Assembly (NCBI RefSeq): GCF_964030865.1
Contig: NZ_OZ034984.1
Location: forward strand, 372,001-436,000
DNA: 64,000 nucleotides
DNA from: Spiroplasma endosymbiont of Dioctria linearis
GTDB lineage: Bacteria > Bacillota_I > Bacilli_A > Mycoplasmatales > Mycoplasmataceae
Reading direction: 5' to 3'
The notes under the pieces were generated by a model. The model saw only the letters and a list, made by a program, of their open reading frames with translations. It was not told where the DNA came from and did not search any database. This document shows positions 3,456 through 22,663 of this stretch, one piece after another. The position numbers and the translations under genes were made by a program. How positions within the stretch are numbered: position 1 is the first letter of the stretch; each line of letters begins with the position of its first letter.

Positions 3456-4826
3456 ATGAAAAAAACAAAATACAGTAAAGAATTAAAAGTAGAGGTTACA
3501 AAAAAGTTTAACCAAGGTCATACACCAAAAAAATTAGTAGAAGAATACAATTTAAATTCTGGAGTACAATTAGTTTATTTATGAAATAGAAAATACTCAA
3601 ATTTAAACTATAATGATACTAACTTTTGTAAGGAGTTTAATATAATGACAAATAAATTGAAAAAGGATTTTAAAGATAAAAGTATAAAAGTTTATGAAAA
3701 AGAAATAGCTAAATTAAAAAAACAATTAAAGGAGTCAAATGAATTAGTACTACTTTCAAATGCAAGATATGAAATTTTGGAAAAGTCCATTCCTTCTTGC
3801 ACAACGGAGATGATCATCAACATGATGAAAATGAGCAAGAAGGACTTAATTCAGATAACAAAGACAAAAATTTATAAGCATTATTCTTTTTGCATAATAT
3901 ACAAATTTGAAGCGTTATATGGAATGGGAACTAATAAATTAATTAATTTCTTTTATGTATCTAAACAAGGTTATTCAAAATTTAAAAGAAGATTTGTTCT
4001 AATGTCACCAATAAAAATTTTCAAAGAGAGATTAGCATTACCTGGTTTTCCAATTTTTCAAAGAAAAGTTTTAAAAAATGCTAATTTTTATATTGAGCAA
4101 TACTTTAAAACCTTTAAAGGCTTTGTCTCAGGGGCTAATATAATTAATAAATGAATTCTTGAAACTTATAATCTAAATATTTCAATTAGAGAAATAAGGA
4201 AAATTCAAAGAGAAAATATATTTAAAATGCCTACTTTTCAAAGAAAAAAGAGAACTAACTTAGGTATCAATAAAAGCAATAATTACATTAGAAAAGATTT
4301 AATTATGAATAATTTTAAAAAAGAGAATGTTATTGGAGTTAATGGAAGCCATATGAAAATAAGAATTAAAGGAGTATTAGAAAATCAAGTTGTCATTTTT
4401 GGATACAATTGATCTAATAATAATATAGTCTCTTATTCCTTCGATAGAACAGAAAATAGTAATAATGCTTTTAAGGTTTTTAATAAAATTAAAAGTTATG
4501 TTAAGAACCTCTCAATATCTAATTTTTTAATACAAACGGATAGAGGCACAGCATTTGCCAATAAAATGATATTTAGTTTCATTAATAGGAACAGTAATTT
4601 TTTAACTCATTCTATGTCTGAAGCGGGTTTTAAGCATAATGCTCCAACCGAATCACTTAATGGATGAGTGAAAAATAAATTTTATAAACAATATAGTAAT
4701 GAATTCACTTCAATGGAGGATTTTCATAATAAGTTTGCAAATTTTGTGGAAATGTGAAATTTAAATCATGATTTTAAATATAATATAAATAGAAAAAAAC
4801 AGTTTGCAAATATTGCAAACTGGTAA
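3456..4826 (+). CDS. DDE transposase of the 1.4-kb insertion sequence, possible catalytic substitution
   Basis: A 456-residue single-frame transposase with code 4, started at ATG 3456 behind GAAAGGA. The N-terminal 70 residues look like a helix-turn-helix (YSKELKVEVTKKF). A Lys/Glu-rich coiled coil follows, then a second DNA-binding region, and a C-terminal retroviral-integrase-like (DDE) domain from about residue 285. The second Asp is D362 in IQTDRG and the Glu is E399 in APTESLNGW. The expected first Asp, just after the beta-strand VIGV, appears as Asn296 in VNGSHMK (AAT instead of GAT). If that alignment is right, the enzyme should be inactive although the frame is intact. Stop codon and right terminal repeat overlap. 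The overall plan is related to the IS3/IS481 type, but the exact family is not certain. Confidence 0.75.
4800..4822 (+). repeat. perfect hairpin at the transposase 3' end
   Basis: CAGTTTGCAA (4800-4809) is followed by ATA and then TTGCAAACTG (4813-4822), a perfect 10-bp stem. It overlaps the last codons of the transposase and part of the right terminal repeat. It could end the transposase message, but no T run follows at this insertion site. Confidence 0.6.
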
Positions 4827-4836
4827 ACTTAGGTTA
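4819..4836 (-). repeat. right terminal inverted repeat
   Basis: Exact reverse complement of 3403-3420. It contains the transposase stop codon (TAA 4824-4826). Confidence 0.8.
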
Positions 4837-5586
4837 TCGCATTCTCTTCTATTTTTTAAATATAAATGTATTTATGGTAGTCCTAGAATAACAATATGTT
4901 TAAAAAGTAAGGGAATAAACATAAGCCAAAATAATGTAGCAAGAATAATGAGAATATATAAGATGTATTCAGTAATTAGAGTTAAAAAGATGATTAGAAA
5001 ACCTAAGGAAAAGAAAAGTATTACTCATGGATCCAATATTGTTAATAGAAAATGAGAAATTTATAAAAAGAATGAATGCTGAGTGACTGACATTACTTAT
5101 TTACCATTAAATAATAAATTTGCTTATCTTAGCATTTTAAAAGATGTTAAGACAGGATTTATAGTTGGTTATAAATTGTATAAAATAAATGATATAAAAA
5201 TTTATAGAGATACTCTTATTAATCACACAAAATATAGAATTGACATAAGTAAATCGCTTATAATTCACTCTGATAATGGTTTTCAATATACATCATTTTT
5301 TGCCAAAAACTATTCAAAAAAGAATAATATAATTATTTCTTTATCAAGACCTGAAAATTCAATAGATAATGCAATGTGTGAAACATTCTTTTATTCATTA
5401 AAAGAGGAATGAAAAAAAGAGTTAAAAGTAAACTCTTTTGAAAAATTGGAAAGCTCTATTAGTAAATATATTCACTTCTTTAATTATGAAAGAATACGAG
5501 GTAAAACTTCTAATCCTCCATCTTATGAATACTTTAATAATTGAAACAAAATAAAAGTAATTGCATTTAATGCAATTACTTTATAA
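4837..5586 (+). pseudogene. IS3-type orfB, 3' part split off by the inserted element
   Basis: The frame entering at 4837 (SHSLLFFKYKCIYGSPRIT) continues open with code 4 to TAA 5584 and carries a complete IS3-type integrase core. It has the CIYGSPRI motif, D in VTDITYL, D in HSDNGFQY, E in CETFFYSLKEE, and the terminal NYERIRGKTSNPP block. It lacks its own N-terminus, which lies before the inserted element at 3231-3402. Joining 3402 to 4837 gives IKLRKRSHSLLFFKY, as expected for the family. The catalytic part looks well preserved, but the split, the upstream stops and the A-run slip make the gene non-functional. Confidence 0.8.
5554..5582 (+). repeat. 13-bp perfect hairpin at the orfB end
   Basis: AAAGTAATTGCAT (5554-5566) pairs with ATGCAATTACTTT (5570-5582), covering the last orfB codons. 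It is probably the terminator or end structure of the IS3-type element, although no T run follows. The element's right end probably lies shortly after, near the TATACTTGACAAAGTATA palindrome at about 5600-5620. Confidence 0.5.
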
Positions 5587-5736: not shown

Positions 5737-7275
5737 ATGAGAGCAGTTATATTAATGTTTGATACTTTAACAAGAAAGTACTTACCTAATTATGGCAATG
5801 ATTGAGTACATGCACCAAACTTTAAAAGATTAGGTGAAAGAACAATGACATTTGATAATTTCTATGCAGGAAGCATGCCATGTATGCCTGCAAGAAGAGA
5901 AATACATACGGGACGATATAATTTTTTGCATAGAGATTGAGGTCAATTAGAACCTTTTGATAACTCAGTATTTGAGCACTTAAAAAATAGTAATATTTAT
6001 ACGCATTTAACAACAGATCATTGACATTACTGAGAAGATGGTGGGGGTACTTATCATACAAGATATAATACTTGGGAAGGATTTAGAGGTCAAGAATATG
6101 ATCAATGAATTCCTGCAGCTTATGGTAAAAATCACGACCAACCTCATAAAAATGATATAAATACTTTTTTTGACTTAAAAACCAGACCAGAAAAATATAA
6201 TTTTTTGAAATATGGAAAAGCTAATTTAGCACATTTAACACAAGATGATACAAGTTATCCTAGTGTACAAACAATGCTATCAGGAATTGAGTTTTTAAAA
6301 GGTCATAAGGATTTAGATAATTGGTTACTACAAATTGAGTGTTTTGACCCTCATGAACCGTTTGTAACTCCTCAAAAATATCGAGATATTTATGATGCGA
6401 AATATACAGACAATATTCCTAATTGACCTAAATATAGCCACTATGATGAAGAAAAAGATGCAGAAACAGTTAAGAAACTTCAAATAGAATATGCTGCATT
6501 AATTTCAATGATAGATGTTTATTTAGGAAAAATTTTAGATTACTTTGATGAAAATGATTTATGAAAAGACACAATGTTAATTGTAAATACAGATCATGGG
6601 TTCTTAACTGGTGAACATAACTTTGTTGGTAAAACAGCAGCACCTTGATATGATGAATTAATTCATACACCATTCTTTTTACATATTCCAGAATTTTCAA
6701 ATATGGATGGAAAAAGATTTGATAAGTTATGTCAAACAATTGATATAGCTCCAACTCTTTTAGACTATTTCAATTTAAAAGATGATTTTGATCGAGATGG
6801 AAATTCAATTTATGAAGCTCTAAGAAAAGATCAAAATAATCACAAGGAGATCTTATTTGGTAATAATGGTGGTCATGTAAATATATATGATGGAAAATAT
6901 GTTTTTATGAAAGCATCTAAAAGTGAAGCCAATTTCCCAAATACTCAATATACACTTAACTTTAATTTTATGAAGGGATTCTTACCAAATTTCTTTTTAA
7001 ATAATATGGAATATGTAAAGGGAACACGATATTCAAATGGAATGCCCATGATGAAATATAATTTACAAGAATTTCCTATGACACCAAATTCATTTAAATA
7101 TGGAGATTTATTGTTTGATTTAGAAGAAGATCCAAAACAATTAAGTCCTTTAAAAGATAAAAAAATTGAATCAATGATGATTAAAAAACTAATTAAAAAA
7201 ATGAAATCTGTTGATACACCTCCAGAAGTTTATGAAAGAATTGGTTTAACAGAAGAGGCATCAACAATAGTTTAA
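5737..7275 (+). CDS. sulfatase, alkaline-phosphatase superfamily, Cys-type
   Basis: A 512-residue cytoplasmic protein with no signal peptide, started at ATG 5737 behind AAAGGAG. The N-terminus has the metal-binding Asp9 (ILMFDTLTRKY). Residues 49-53 are C-M-P-A-R, the C-x-P-x-R sulfatase signature whose Cys must be converted to formylglycine. A second metal site is visible in VNTDHGFLTGEH, and the C-terminal region has the usual DLEEDPKQLSPL block. It should hydrolyse sulfate esters, or in some relatives phosphonate or phosphate esters. It is the first gene of an operon with a PTS permease (38 bp downstream) and a ROK kinase, so the substrate is probably an imported, modified sugar. No formylglycine-generating enzyme or anaerobic maturase is in the window. 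In-frame TGA codons encode Trp at several sites. Confidence 0.85.
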
Positions 7276-7313: not shown

Positions 7314-9965
7314 ATGCACAAAAAAGTTTTAAATGTATATGCTATTTGCGATGGTGTTATAGACATAATAGAGAATATTGATGATAGGGTTTTTAAAAAT
7401 AATTTATTAGGGACAGGTTATTTCATATCTGCTACATCTAATAAAATTCATAATCCAATTGAAAATGCTAATATAGATTTGGTTTTTGAAACAAAACATG
7501 GTTTATTTTTAAAGCAAGAAAATTTGGATTCTTCTATTATGATAAATATGTGTCTTGACTTTAGAAAAGAAGATGGTCAATATTTTAATATTGCAAAAGA
7601 GCAAAATGAAAAAATAAAAAACTTTGAGAAAATAGCAGAAGTAAATTTAGATTATTTAAAAGTAGTCCATAAAAATACTAATATTGCTGTTTTAATTAAT
7701 GATGAATCTAATAAAATGAATTGAATTTTTCAACCTTATTTTGCAGGAGCAACAAAGGTTAAAAAAAATGACTTAATAGGTACTTTTGAATCAATTTTAG
7801 AAAGTGAAAAAGATATTAAAGTTGATGAATACTTTAAAACTAGTTCAAATTGAGAACTAATTGCACGAAAAATAATTGAGCTTGTTGGAAGAAAAGGTAA
7901 TTATAGTAATTCTTACAATTGTTCAACTCGTCTTCGATTTAAAATAAAAGATAAAAGTCTTGTAGATATTGAGTCACTTCAAAAAATTAAACAAGTAAAG
8001 GGAGTTGTTTGAAAAAATGATGAACTGCAATTAATTTTAGGAAAAACTGTTTATAAATTATATGCAGGTTTAAAAAAATTTGAGGATTCTGGGGAATTTG
8101 ATTTACTGGCAAATAGAAAAATGTCTCTTGGAAAAAGAATGTTAGTTGCTCTTTCTTCAATCATGATTCCATTAATTCCAATATTAATTGGAGCTGGTAT
8201 TATAATGGCATTTGTTGGTATGTTGCAAATAACAAAGTTAATGCCAGATGTTGTTTTAAAAATACCAGAATCAGGATTAAAACCAGGTCAAGAATATATT
8301 AGAGATACAAATGTATTGTGAGCAATGTTATATGTAATAGCTAATACGCCTTTGAGATTTATAGGTATATTAGCAGGAATAAGTGCTGCAAAGTATTTTA
8401 GACTAAATATATTTTTAGGATTGTCGATTGGTTTAATTTTAGGTAGTCCTTTAATATTTGGAGATGGGGGACCAATAGGATTTGGTTATAGTTGAGATTT
8501 ATTTAAAACTGGAATAAGTCCTGATGATCCTATTTGATATGGTCTTTCATCAATAAAAGTAATGCCTCAAGGGGCAAGAGTAATTGTTGTAATACTGGCA
8601 GTTTTAACTACAAAAAAAATTGAAAACTGAGTTATAACTTGAGTGCCAAAATCCTTAGAATTAATTCTAAAGTCTGCTTTAACATTATTAATTGCAGCTC
8701 TAATAACATTCTTTATTATTGGGCCAATTTGATATGTTTTTGAACAATTAATTGGTGTTGGTTTAAGATTTGTTACCAAAACTCCACTTGGAATTGGTAC
8801 TGGTATTTATGCCTTAATTTGACAACCCTTAGTTATAGTAGGTATGCACTCAGCTGTTGGTCAAATTTCACAAATGCAGGTATTAACAGATGGGGTTAGT
8901 TATTTGACACCTGGTGGAGAGTTTTCTGTATGAGGACAAGTAGGTGCTGTTATTGCAGTTATACTTATTTCTAAAAATAGTGCAACTAAAAGAGAAGCAC
9001 GATCAACTGTAATTACTGGTTTCTTTGGTGTGCCTGCTCCAATTGTTTATGGAATTAACTTACCTAAAGTAAGACCTTTTATTGCAGGAACTCTGGGTGC
9101 TTTCTTTGCTGGATGCTTTAGTAATATGTTAAGTGTTTCGCAAAGAGTTAATACAGGTTTAGGAGTATTTTCATTCTTTGGATTTTTCTCAAACCCAATA
9201 AATCCAGAAATTGTAACTGTTGAGTTAATACCCAATACTTTGAATGGTCTATACAATATATTATGTTGTGTGATGGCAACTGGATTAGCATTAATGTTTA
9301 CAATATTTATGTATAAAGAAAGAATTCTTGAAAATAATATTATTAAAAAAAATAATGCAAAAGTTATTAAAATAATTAACTTATCAAATTTTAATTTGAC
9401 TTCTGAAGATAAAATAAAAGTAACAAATATTTTAAGCGCGGAAGAAAACTTTTTTGCAAAAGAGGAAGTTATTAAAATTAAAAAACTTGAGAAATTATTA
9501 ATTGAAAGTCTAAAATATAAAATTGAATTAGAGATTATATTTTATAAAGAAAATAAAATTAAAGATAGATTATTTGAGCATGGATGTAATTTGATTAATA
9601 AAAATAAACCTTTAAAAGCCAAATCAATTATGGAAAAACATAAAGATATTTACTTTTTAAAGAAAAAAGAAACATTACAAAATAAAATTCAGCAGTTAGA
9701 TATAAAAATGGCTGATAAATTAAAATGATTAGATGAACTTATTAAAACTAAAGAAAATGCAGTACTAAGTAATTTTAAATTATTAGAAGATTATTTATCA
9801 GAAGAGAATCTTTATTCAATAAAGTTACTATACAAAAATACTTTAAATGATTTAAAAATAACTTATAAATTACAAAAACCAGTTGATGCTAAAATTACTT
9901 TAAATAGTATTATAAAAAAAATTTCACAGGAAAATAATTTAAATAAAAGTTTGCAAAATAATTAA
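7314..9965 (+). CDS. PTS sugar permease, EIIA(degenerate)-EIIB-EIIC plus C-terminal domain
   Basis: An 883-residue protein. Residues 1 to about 165 are a glucose-type EIIA domain, but the phosphorylated His is replaced: His62 (in ETKHGLF) corresponds to the helper His, while Asn78 (in IMINMCLD) stands where the intact paralogues in this window have LIHCGID. An EIIB domain follows with its active Cys (YNCSTRLRF), then EIIC with about ten membrane segments, including a FGDGGPIG loop and the VYGINLPK motif. From about residue 671 a soluble Lys/Glu-rich C-terminal domain follows. It should import and phosphorylate a sugar, but phosphate would have to come from another EIIA. It lies between the sulfatase and the ROK kinase in one operon. 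Confidence 0.85.
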
Positions 9966-9997: not shown

Positions 9998-10969
9998 ATG
10001 AAAAATATAAATTATTTATATGACATTGGAGGATTAAGTACCAAAAAAATTGTTATGGATCATAACAATAAAATAATATCAGAGGATATAATTTCTTATG
10101 ATGATACCAAAAGACCAAATGCATGACAATTAGATGTAAACTATGTTTTTAGTTTAATAAAAAATGATCTACCAAAGAATATTAAAATAAACTTGGGAAT
10201 TAGTATTCCTGGAATTATTGATTCAATTAATTATAAAATATTATCTGAATCTGCATTAACAAATATTAAAGAAATTAATTTAAAAGATTTTTTTAGTGAG
10301 TTAAAAAATATAGAAGTATTTAAAATTGAAAATGATGCCAAGGCCGCAGCTTATGGAGAATATTATTTTGGTCAAAAGCAAAAATACAAGAATATGCTTC
10401 ATGTAACTGTTGGAACAGGTCTTGGTGGAGGAATTATTATTGATGGTAAAATTTACAAAGGTTTTAAAGGAGGAGCTGGAGAATTATCAAAGCTATTTGC
10501 AAATTTTGACTCTAAGAACAATAATTTAGTTGTTCAAAGTACCTCAACAGGTGCAAATTTAAAAAGATATGCAGACTCAATTGAATTAGGAGAACTTGCA
10601 GAAATTGAAGATGTTGTAACTGCTAAGGCAAAAAATAATTTTAGAATGAAAAAATTAATTGATGGTAAATCATTTATGAAACTAGTTGAAGAAAATGAAC
10701 CAATAGCTGTTAAAGTTTTTGATATATGAACAACAAGTTTAACTAAGTATTTAGTTTCTTTAAATTTTTTAATGGATTTTGAAGCAATAACTATTGGTGG
10801 GGGAATAAGTTCTAATAGTAAATTTTTGGATACTATAATTAAAAAGGCTGAAGATTATATTATTTTATTTAAAAATTTTTCTCCAATTGAACATATAAAT
10901 ATAATAAAAAGTAATTTAGAAAATAGGGCTGGATGTTATGGTATTTTAGCCAAGCTATTAAAAGAGTAA
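9998..10969 (+). CDS. ROK-family sugar kinase
   Basis: A 323-residue ROK-type protein. The N-terminal phosphate-binding loop reads YDIGGLSTKK. The catalytic Asp lies in ENDAKAAAYGEYYFG, followed by VTVGTGLGGGIIIDG and GGAGEL; a second glycine-rich block (TIGGGISSN) is near the C-terminus. The cysteine-rich zinc motif of classical ROK glucokinases is not seen. It probably phosphorylates a hexose or amino sugar released inside the cell, such as the product of the sulfatase step. It starts 32 bp after the PTS gene and ends just before a strong terminator, so it is the last gene of the operon. Confidence 0.8.
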
Positions 10970-11185: not shown

Positions 11186-11228
11186 TTACAATTTTAAAAA
11201 TAATATATACTTTAAAGGAGTGTCTTAT

Positions 11229-13352
11229 ATGAAGGAAAATAAAAGTTCTTGTAAAAATATTACTATAGAATTTAATCAGGTAATTTCAACAATAAATAAT
11301 GATATTAAAAATGAAAATGCAAATATGAATGGTGATACACCAAGTGGTAAAATGATGAAATTTGCTTCAATATCAGCAAAAAATTTTGCATTGGAAAATT
11401 TACTTAAGTTAAAGCATGCAAACTTACATAAAAGTTCATTAATTCATATTCATGATTTGGATTATTATGCTACAAAATCAGCAACTTGTGTTCAATATAA
11501 TATTGAGGAGATATTTAATAATGGTTTTAAAACAAAAAATGGTTTGATTAAAGAACCGCAATCAATTGGTGTATATGCTGAGTTAGCATCAATTATCTTT
11601 CAAACAGCTCAAAATGAAATGCATGGAGGACAATCAATCCCAGCTTTTGATTACTTTATGGCTCCAGGAGTAAATAAAACTTTTAGAAAAATTCTGTTAG
11701 AAAAATTAAAGACCTTCTTATTTTTTTCAAATATAAATTTTGAGAAAAATAAAATAAATGATATAAAAAAAGATGAGAGTATAAAATTTAAAAAATTAAA
11801 AAAGGAAATGATTAGTTTATATTTACCAAAAATTAATATTTCACAAAAAGATTTTGATAAAATAAATCAATTAACAATTAAAGAGACAATTAATCAAACT
11901 AATCAAGCAATGGAAGGTTTTATTTATAATCTAAATACTCAACATTCAAGAGGAGGAAATCAAGTTGTTTTTTCTTCAATAAATTTAGGAACTGACACTT
12001 CAGATGAGGGAAGACAAGTTACAAAATCACTATTTAGGGCTTTAGAAAAAGGATTAGGTAATGGTGAAACTTCAATTTTTCCAATAGTTATTTTTAAAGT
12101 TAAGAATTTAGTAAACTTTCATGAAGAAGATTACAAAAAAGCAATGAATCAAAGTCAGGAAGAGTGATTTAATGAAAGTAATATTTGAAATGTCAAAAAC
12201 TTTGATTTACTTTTAGAAGCAATTAAAACAACAAGTAAAAGATTATTTCCAAATTTTATGTTTTTAGATCAAAAATATAATCAACATCATTTATGAAATC
12301 AAAATGATAGTAAATCTTGATATTATGAACCAGCAACAATGGGATGTCGTACAAGAGTTTTTGAAAATATTAATGGTGAAAAAACATCAATTGGACGAGG
12401 AAATTTGAGCTTTACTTCATTAAATTTGCCTTATATAGCATTAGAACTTTTAGAAAAAAAAGGTTTTTTAAAAAATGAAATAATCAATTACTCTAAAATT
12501 AATTCTTCAAAAATAAAAAAATTATTTTTAGAAAGGGTTAAATATTATAGTCAAGAAATTTGTAATCAATTAAAAGTTCGATATGATTATCAAATAACAG
12601 CTATTGCAAAAGAATTTCCATTTCTAATGAGCAATAATATTTTATCTGCGGGAATTAATTTAAAATCACAAGATTCTGTAGAGGATGTTTTTAAGCAAGG
12701 AACGTTAACAATTGGTTTTGTTGGTTTGGCAGAAGCATTAAAAGCACTGTTAAATTTTCATCATGGTGAAAATGACGAAGCACAAAAATTTGGATTAGAA
12801 ATTATAGAAGTTATTAACAATGTTTCACTTATATGAAAGGAAAAAACTCATTTAAATTTTGGAGTTATAGCAACACCAGCAGAATCAGTTGCAGGTAGAA
12901 TGGCAAAACAAACTAGAAAAGTTTTTGGTTTAGTATCTGGAGTTACTGACAGGGAATACTTTACGAATTCAAATCATATTCCAGTTTATTATAATATTAG
13001 TGCTATTGAAAAAATTAAAAGAGAAGCAAAATATCATTTATTAACTTTGGCTGGTAGTATAAGTTATGTTGAATTAGATGGAGAAGCTAAAAAAAACTTG
13101 CATGCTATTCTTTCTATAATTAATGCAATGCGAATTCATGGAACAAATTATGGGAGTTTAAATCATCCAGTAGATAGATGCAAAAAATGTAATTATACTT
13201 CTTTAATTCCCTTACATTGTCAAATGTGTAATAGCAAAGAAATTTCAAGAACTAGAAGAATTACAGGATATTTAGTTGGAGATTTAGAGTGTTGAAATAA
13301 AGGAAAGCAGGCTGAAGAATCAGAAAGAGTAAAGCATAAAACTAAAAATTAA
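11229..13352 (+). CDS. nrdD: anaerobic ribonucleoside-triphosphate reductase
   Basis: A 707-residue class III ribonucleotide reductase that makes deoxynucleoside triphosphates without oxygen, using a glycyl radical. ATG 11229 is preferred over the upstream GTG because AAAGGAG (11214-11220) is correctly spaced before it. The core begins almost at once ([24 protein letters not shown]), so the usual N-terminal ATP-cone of about 90 residues is missing. The catalytic Cys region is [12 protein letters not shown], and a Cys4 zinc site (CKKC and CQMC) lies near residues 655-675. The glycyl-radical loop is [12 protein letters not shown], with the conserved tail [15 protein letters not shown]. It overlaps nrdG by one base and must act with it. 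Confidence 0.95.
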
Positions 13353-13852
13353 TGAAAATACTTAAAATTTTTAAAGAAACAATAAGTGATGGACCTGGAG
13401 TTAGATACTCTATTTATATTGCTGGATGCTTGCATGCTTGTTATGGTTGTCATAATCTTTTGAGTTGAAATTTTAAAATAGGAAAAGCCTTTGACAAAGA
13501 ATATGAAAAAGAAATTATTTCAGAGATTAAATCAAATTCATTATTAAATGGAATTACTTTTAGTGGTGGAGATCCAATGTTTAGTGCAATTGAATTGTTG
13601 CCTTTTGTAAAAAAACTAAAAAAAGAAACTGGTTTGAATATATGACTATATACAGGTTTTACTATAGAAGAAATAATAGCAAAAAAAGATGATTCTAATG
13701 AGAAAGAATATTCTATGTACAAATTATTACTTGAAATAGATACATTAGTAGATGGTAGATTTGTAAAAGAACTATATGACCCTAATATTTTATTTAGGGG
13801 AAGTTCAAATCAACGATTAATTGATGTAAAAAAATATTTTAATTTACTTTAA
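13352..13852 (+). CDS. nrdG: anaerobic ribonucleotide reductase activating protein, radical SAM
   Basis: A 166-residue radical-SAM enzyme that generates the glycyl radical on NrdD. The iron-sulfur cluster motif C-x3-C-x2-C is CLHACYGC near residue 27, preceded by [14 protein letters not shown], typical of NrdG. The SAM-binding GGDP motif appears in TFSGGDPMF. The start ATG overlaps the nrdD stop (TAATG), so translation is coupled. Length and motifs are normal for the family. A terminator follows directly. Confidence 0.95.
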
Positions 13853-17110: not shown

Positions 17111-17124
17111 ATGGAAAATATTAC
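17111..17124 (+). promoter_or_regulatory. ATG(G)AAAATATTAC box before PTS copy 2
   Basis: A near-identical box lies just upstream of the ribosome binding site of all three related PTS units (17111, 21552 and 23298). Here it is ATGGAAAATATTAC, immediately followed by TGTAAGGAG. It is a candidate regulator site or conserved leader sequence, not a start codon. Confidence 0.45.
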
Positions 17125-21564: not shown

Positions 21565-22663
21565 AATGAGGAGGAAAAGAATGGAAATTAATTTGTATTC
21601 GCCAGTTGATGGTGAAATTAAAGAATTAAAAGAATGTAGCAATGAAATGTTTGCTAAAAAAATGCTAGGTGATGGTTTTATTATAATGCCGGCATTGGAT
21701 AATTTTAATGGTTTTAGTGATAAAGCAACAGTAACTATGGTTTTTAAAGCGTACCATACTTATGGTTTTAATATTGAAGACTTAGAGTTTTTGGTTAATG
21801 TTGGAATGGATACTATTGCCTTAAAGGGAATTGCATTTTCTACAAAATTAAAAATCGGGGATATAGTTGATAAAAGTGATAGTCTTTTTAAAGTAGATTT
21901 GAATTATTTAGAGAAAAATAATTTATCAAAAGAAACAGCTATTGTTTTTGAAATTAATGATTTAAGTGAATATAAAATAAATAATTTAAAAATTGGTAAT
22001 GTTAAACAAGGAGATTTAGTCTGTACGATAACATATAAATTTTTTCCTAGAAATCAAAAAAAAAATTTAGAATCCTCGATGGGTTTAAAAGAGTTTTTTA
22101 ATTTTTCTAATAAATATGAAAATTCTGCAAAATTAATTAATCAATTAGTAGGTGACAATTTTATTTATGAAGAGATATATAAATGTATGACAAGATTAAG
22201 ATTTAAAATCAAGAACAAAATCTGAGTTGATATTGAAAAATTTAAGCAAGTTAATAATGTTAATCGAGCTGTTTGAAATGGCTCTGTATTGCAAATTGTA
22301 ATTGGAAACATATCTATAAATTAAAAGACGAAGTAATAAAATTGAAAAACTATTCAATAGAAATTAAAAATAAATTAGTTTAAAAAATAAAAATGTAACT
22401 TTTATAAGAAAATTTTTTGAAATGCTATATGAAATTATGGTTAAAATAATACCAGTAATGCTGGAAACAGCTTTGATTCAAACAATATTTCTATTTTAAT
22501 TCAAATAGCTAATGTAATGTCCAATATTATTTTTAATAAAATACAACAAAAGTGAGTATTAATAACAAAAGCAGGTATTGGCTGAGTTATTTTATTCATT
22601 ATAGGTTTCTCTAGTAACTATTTTATGGGAATAATGATTGCAGTTTAAACTAGAAAAAATAAA

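Follow-up and report, generated by a model that had tools for sequence, protein, structure and literature searches.

A sulfatase-linked PTS permease of a Spiroplasma endosymbiont that lacks the EIIA histidine and the EIIC GITEP glutamate: a candidate for natural transport without phosphorylation

A permease of the PTS glucose superfamily, encoded in the genome of the Spiroplasma endosymbiont of Dioctria linearis, carries Asn78 in place of the phosphorylated histidine of its EIIA domain and Ala575 in place of the glutamate of its EIIC GITEP motif. Both replacements occur together in all three orthologues (3/3), and neither was found in the 92 other permeases of the family alignment, which brings together all distinct permeases of this bacterial family in the retrieved loci, 95 in total. 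The gene (positions 7314..9965, + strand) lies in a window of 64,000 nucleotides, which represents positions 372001-436000 of the 1.23 Mb genome. With a probability of roughly 45%, the protein is a permease that has become uncoupled in nature and brings in a sulfated sugar with no phosphorylation; a sulfatase would then free the sugar, a TauE-type protein would export the anion, and a ROK kinase would supply the phosphate.

PTS permeases are the textbook example of group translocation, in which transport is tied to phosphorylation. Laboratory mutants show that the two processes are separable. If the proposed function is correct, a natural permease that is still under selection although it lacks both the carrier residue of EIIA and the glutamate of EIIC would reveal how transport and phosphorylation come apart in evolution, and the role of the GITEP glutamate could be studied with it. 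Such a permease would also point to sulfated sugars as a nutrient that these wall-less bacteria desulfate inside the cell.

Domain structure and altered residues of the permease

The permease has 883 amino acids (genetic code 4, with 12 TGA codons read as Trp) and consists of EIIA, EIIB, and EIIC followed by a predicted helical C-terminal extension of ~190 residues. The EIIA (PTS_EIIA_1, PF00358; residues 7-131, window 7332..7706, E 2.8e-19), EIIB (PF00367; core residues 185-218, 7866..7967, E 4.5e-11), and EIIC membrane domains (PF02378; residues 282-594, 8157..9095, E 2.4e-20) score 69.5, 42.4, and 73.3 bits, respectively, all above the Pfam cut-offs of 27.2, 27.0, and 30.7 bits. The best NCBIfam match is TIGR01995 (E 1.9e-77). 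The scores for TIGR01995, TIGR01996, and TIGR01992 (261, 227, and 192 bits) are far below the respective cut-offs (614.7, 559.3, and 591.95 bits), of which the intact permease copies in the window also fall short. The permease shares its three Pfam domains with the beta-glucoside-, sucrose-, and trehalose-type EII permeases described by these models, but differs from them in the loss of the EIIA His and EIIC Glu and in its order EIIA-EIIB-EIIC with a C-terminal extension. In the latter respect it is like the relatives in its bacterial family. The extension (residues 691-883, window 9384-9962) has counterparts of ~200 extra residues in most of these permeases, which are predicted to be helical and had no Pfam match in the copies scanned.

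In direct alignment to the solved EIIA structures 2gpr and 3our, Asn78 (codon AAT, 7545..7547) sits on the active histidine, with IMINMCLD in the permease versus ILLHIGLD in 2gpr and LFVHFGID in 3our. This residue, which corresponds to His90 of E. coli EIIAGlc, is Asn in 3/3 orthologues and His in 92/92 other proteins, and the sequence SIMINMCLDF is common to the permease and both orthologues. An earlier note on this DNA, which had called for an alignment of EIIA homologues, had recognised the replacement from the sequence, together with the retention of the helper histidine and the EIIB cysteine; all of this holds. The helper His62 (7497..7499), equivalent to His75 of E. coli EIIAGlc, is kept in 94/95 proteins including the permease. 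The note had also named two observations that would speak against its claim, a different phosphate-accepting histidine or a misaligned region, and the alignment to the solved EIIAs gave no sign of either, because the domain aligns end to end and has no histidine at the active position. The other histidines of the domain are His46, which is Tyr in one orthologue, and His119, which is located close to the domain's C-terminus. Two further genomes have the same residues at and around Asn78, which rules out a sequencing or assembly error. Chance as the cause of Asn78 also appears very unlikely, considering that 92 of the 95 distinct permeases have His. Of 18 EIIA columns with a conservation of 90% or more, eight are changed in all three orthologues. 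In Vibrio EIIAGlc, the equivalent H91A exchange abolishes phosphorylation (PMC6123446). Judged by analogy, the permease's own EIIA cannot serve as a phosphate carrier. Structure prediction from the window sequences yielded poor models, with a mean pLDDT of 37 for the whole protein and 43 for the EIIA domain.

The EIIB domain retains the phosphorylation cysteine of the NCxTRLR motif (Cys203 in YNCSTRLRF, 7920..7922; Cys in 95/95 proteins) and all near-invariant catalytic residues. In EIIC, the GITEP motif reads GVPAP, and the codon of Ala575 (9036..9038) replaces that of a Glu found in 92/92 other permeases. Hence, the transporter is not "otherwise complete" as the earlier note had assumed. In a comparison with a first set of 53 other permeases, only four columns invariant in that set are changed in all three orthologues, namely Pro11, His78, and Gly80 of EIIA and Glu575 of EIIC. 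The changes thus cluster around the active site of EIIA and on a single residue of EIIC, and EIIB is nearly untouched. The GITEP Glu has been described as almost universal in EIICs of the glucose family and as essential for transport and phosphorylation (PMC12900739, whose authors state that they rely on homologues for this). The corresponding residue of E. coli IICGlc, E298, which is equated with Ala575 through the shared GITEP motif because EIIC could not be aligned directly by sequence to the solved EIIC structures, coordinates OH-6, the phosphate-receiving hydroxyl, and the adjacent T297 coordinates other hydroxyls (PMC11393339). Both positions are altered in the permease, to Pro-Ala. The Thr574-to-Pro exchange was considered as a second unique change and dropped, as Pro occurs in 6/95 proteins and hence in three that keep the Glu.

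Gene neighbourhood and sulfatase-linked relatives

The permease gene is located between genes for a sulfatase and a ROK-family sugar kinase, separated from them by 38 and 32 nt, respectively. The sulfatase (5737..7275, + strand; 512 aa; PF00884, E 1.2e-23) has the formylglycine motif CMPAR (CxPxR), and its alignment shows both the CxPxR and TDHG motifs. Its catalytic core begins at residue 1, and the enzyme therefore appears to be cytoplasmic; no signal peptide was seen by eye. In the two orthologous clusters the sulfatases are 96% and 86% identical to this protein. The ROK kinase (9998..10969, + strand; 323 aa; PF00480, E 1.9e-38) carries the catalytic-Asp motif ENDAKAAAYGE and has no DNA-binding domain. 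Its counterparts in the orthologous clusters share 95% and 80% identity with it, and the nearest NCBIfam models are ROK glucokinase-like. The protein lacks the usual ROK His/Cys metal-site motif (GGAGELSKLF...STSTGANL) and keeps the catalytic-Asp motif, a combination also seen in a ROK protein of genome G006. Directly downstream, at window positions 11220-13852, genes resembling nrdD and nrdG, which would encode an anaerobic ribonucleotide reductase with its activase, were recognised by eye. Scans for promoters and terminators found no more of these elements than in shuffled sequence.

Two additional genes belong to this set. They are located outside the window (G000:366361-368128) and encode a formylglycine-generating enzyme (FGE; PF03781, E 5.9e-70) with both active cysteines (CHDAFC, a CxxxxC motif) and a putative anion exporter of the TauE/SafE family (PF01925, E 2e-29). 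In genomes G015 and G002 a divergent FGE gene comes first, followed by those for TauE/SafE, the sulfatase, the permease, and the ROK kinase. The FGE and TauE genes are contiguous with the cluster in these two other species (L054, L055) and separated from it here (L056), where they lie ~9.6 kb upstream of the sulfatase gene. The intervening stretch contains ABC-transporter-like genes and, at 3456..5586 (+ strand), transposase-like ORFs. Regardless of this separation, the permease lies between the sulfatase and the ROK kinase in all three species, with FGE and TauE/SafE genes nearby.

Similar gene sets exist elsewhere in the bacterial family. Sulfatase homologues were detected in 8/60 of its genomes, although the one in G059 is weak. 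In G006, G026, G053, G057 (one of two loci), and G059 the sulfatase adjoins a PTS permease with intact His and Glu, and these loci mostly contain FGE and TauE genes as well. The six loci L076, L077, and L087 to L090 in these five genomes, which represent several genera of the wall-less family, combine a sulfatase with FGE and/or a TauE/SafE-type gene, and most of them also have a catalytically intact PTS permease. No paper on the sulfatase/FGE/TauE clusters of the wall-less family was found in the open-access literature. The phylogenetic tree places the sulfatase-linked permease of G059 as sister to the three orthologues (support 98). Therefore, the change most simply arose within a lineage of sulfatase-linked permeases. 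The G059 permease (L061) is likewise situated beside sulfatase, FGE, and TauE genes. However, its EIIA His and GITEP Glu are intact, the adjacent sulfatase is a different one (22% identical to the window sulfatase), and the locus contains a GH1 phospho-glucosidase-like gene and, in the stretch read, no ROK gene. A comparable combination of functions in one island, consisting of ROK, PTS, sulfatase, and sulfatase-modifying factor, is described from Streptococcus pneumoniae (PMC3283741). According to that description, its PTS, with no substrate assigned, is of a different family, the cellobiose/chitobiose type, and its ROK protein is presumed to act as a repressor; a loss of catalytic residues is not known from this island.

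Proposed transport without phosphorylation and competing explanations

An uncoupled permease could operate as follows. The elevator movement of EIIC would carry the sulfated sugar inward without phosphorylation, plausibly because the phosphate-receiving hydroxyl carries the sulfate or because the pocket has to accommodate a charged group. The formylglycine-generating enzyme would activate the cytoplasmic sulfatase, which would strip the sulfate from the sugar inside the cell, the TauE/SafE protein would export the anion, and the ROK kinase would use ATP to phosphorylate the freed sugar. EIIA and EIIB would be retained for a structural or regulatory role. Laboratory mutants of EIICB are known in which uptake of glucose is uncoupled from its phosphorylation (PMC3901232), and the permease would work like these E. 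coli EIICBGlc variants. In contrast to the mutants, whose catalytic domains are otherwise intact, the changes in the permease have become fixed in nature. The conservation of the sulfatase, FGE, TauE, and ROK genes around the permease in three species is in favour of this function. The fuller evolutionary scenario would be that a complete PTS EIIABC gave rise to a non-phosphorylating permease when both ends of the phosphorelay, the EIIA His and the EIIC Glu, were switched off so that an already sulfated sugar, for which phosphorylation is either impossible or unnecessary, could pass, and that phosphorylation moved to the ATP-dependent ROK kinase after intracellular desulfation. This scenario is tentative and somewhat short of even odds. 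A report of a natural PTS permease lacking both residues was not found in the open-access literature searched, which is no proof of novelty.

Several observations do not fit uncoupling easily. EIIB keeps Cys203 and the other near-invariant catalytic residues, which would be needless in a fully uncoupled permease. The ROK kinase was abandoned as specific proof of uncoupling, because ROK genes also adjoin intact PTS genes elsewhere in these genomes. Moreover, replacement of the Glu in other EIICs reportedly eliminates transport as well (PMC12900739). Ala575 could therefore impair transport, rather than phosphorylation only.

Alternatively, the permease may still phosphorylate its substrate. Its own EIIA would then be a relic or scaffold, Cys203 of EIIB would receive phosphate from a standalone crr-like EIIA or from the EIIA of another permease, and EIIC would phosphorylate an unusual (sulfated) substrate, with the Glu-to-Ala exchange being an adaptation to that substrate. 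As a whole this explanation is possible but doubtful, and the charging of EIIB by another EIIA is a serious rival to uncoupling. The fully conserved catalytic motif of EIIB is consistent with such phosphate transfer, and potential donors are at hand. The genome encodes nine EIIA-type domains, the permease's own and eight further ones, and the donor set comprises seven EIIA domains with His (one standalone and six others) as well as EI and HPr. Cross-talk between EIIAs is established in Bacillus subtilis (PMC6148471). Furthermore, the active His is likewise replaced by Asn in a second permease copy of the window (at 21566), whose G015 counterpart retains GITEP. The suggestion of the earlier note that phosphate may come from the EIIA of another permease is thus precedented and has donors in the same genome, but it meets a difficulty in EIIC, where the GITEP Glu is lost in 3/3 orthologues and kept in 92/92 other proteins. 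Because this residue is Ala, borrowed phosphate alone probably would not restore a normal PTS reaction, and EIIA sharing accounts for the loss only if the pocket has been remodelled to take another substrate. In addition, a redundant EIIA would be expected to drift, yet this domain is constrained (see below). TreP, MalP, NagP, and SacP of B. subtilis, which borrow EIIAGlc, likewise function without an EIIA of their own, but they lack the domain altogether, whereas the permease keeps it under constraint. Also unlike the permease, none of them is known to lack the Glu of EIIC. If EIIA sharing did apply, a permease that phosphorylates without a supposedly essential glutamate would be informative as well.

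A role as sensor or regulator, which the earlier note had also raised, is unlikely. In this case the protein would transport slowly or not at all and would act as a receptor that signals the presence of substrate or whether EIIB is phosphorylated. The loss of catalytic residues from domains kept under constraint would suit such a role, and SacX is a precedent of a PTS protein that is mainly a sensor (PMC6148471). However, SacX-type sensing depends on EIIB phosphorylation, the permease sits in a catabolic gene set that has no other transporter besides TauE and no PRD antiterminator recognisable by eye, and in other sulfatase clusters this place is occupied by an ordinary PTS permease.

Orthologues, sequence constraint, and a broken sister copy

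A genus-wide search retrieved two true orthologues, which are 95% and 79% identical to the permease over the full alignment (94% and 78% by search). No more were found among 395 genomes of the class, where the three proteins scored 1838-1895 bits and the next best 474 bits. The three orthologues represent one lineage, so that the losses of His and Glu are not independent replicates. The ratio of non-synonymous to synonymous substitution (dN/dS) between the permease and its G002 orthologue amounts to 0.165 in EIIA, 0.26 in EIIB, 0.14 in EIIC, and 0.30 in the C-terminal region. For comparison, the EIIA of the intact neighbour copy at 17111 has a value of 0.18. The constraint on this EIIA is thus similar to that on an intact one, and the domain is not in simple decay; calling the domain "damaged", as the earlier note did, is misleading for a domain under purifying selection. 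The value of 0.44 obtained for EIIA against G015 is based on 12 changes and says little.

The weakest explanation, an inactive permease in early decay toward a pseudogene, might be suggested by the broken copy with the same His-to-Asn change in the same window, but it is very improbable and largely refuted by the constraint, as dN/dS against G002 is 0.14-0.30 in every domain, the frames of 882-885 aa are intact in three species, and the stretch around GVPAP is fully invariant in the three orthologues. Ordinary gene decay was accordingly rejected as the main explanation, and the EIIA and EIIC ratios indicate that the gene is no pseudogene.

The broken copy (window 21566-22324, with remains to about 22645) is of the type EIIA-EIIB(-EIIC), reads FLVNVGMD at the EIIA active site, and has an EIIC reduced to fragments in this genome. 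Its counterpart in G015 has the same Asn, an intact GITEP motif, and frameshifts, and that in G002 (L078) is intact and has the His. This copy represents a second, separate His-to-Asn change in the genome of the endosymbiont. A mirror case is found in L033 (G010:C1:1042773-1045289), where the phosphorylation His of EIIA (LIHIGLET) and a GITEP-type Glu are present and the helper His is lost (KKNSF).
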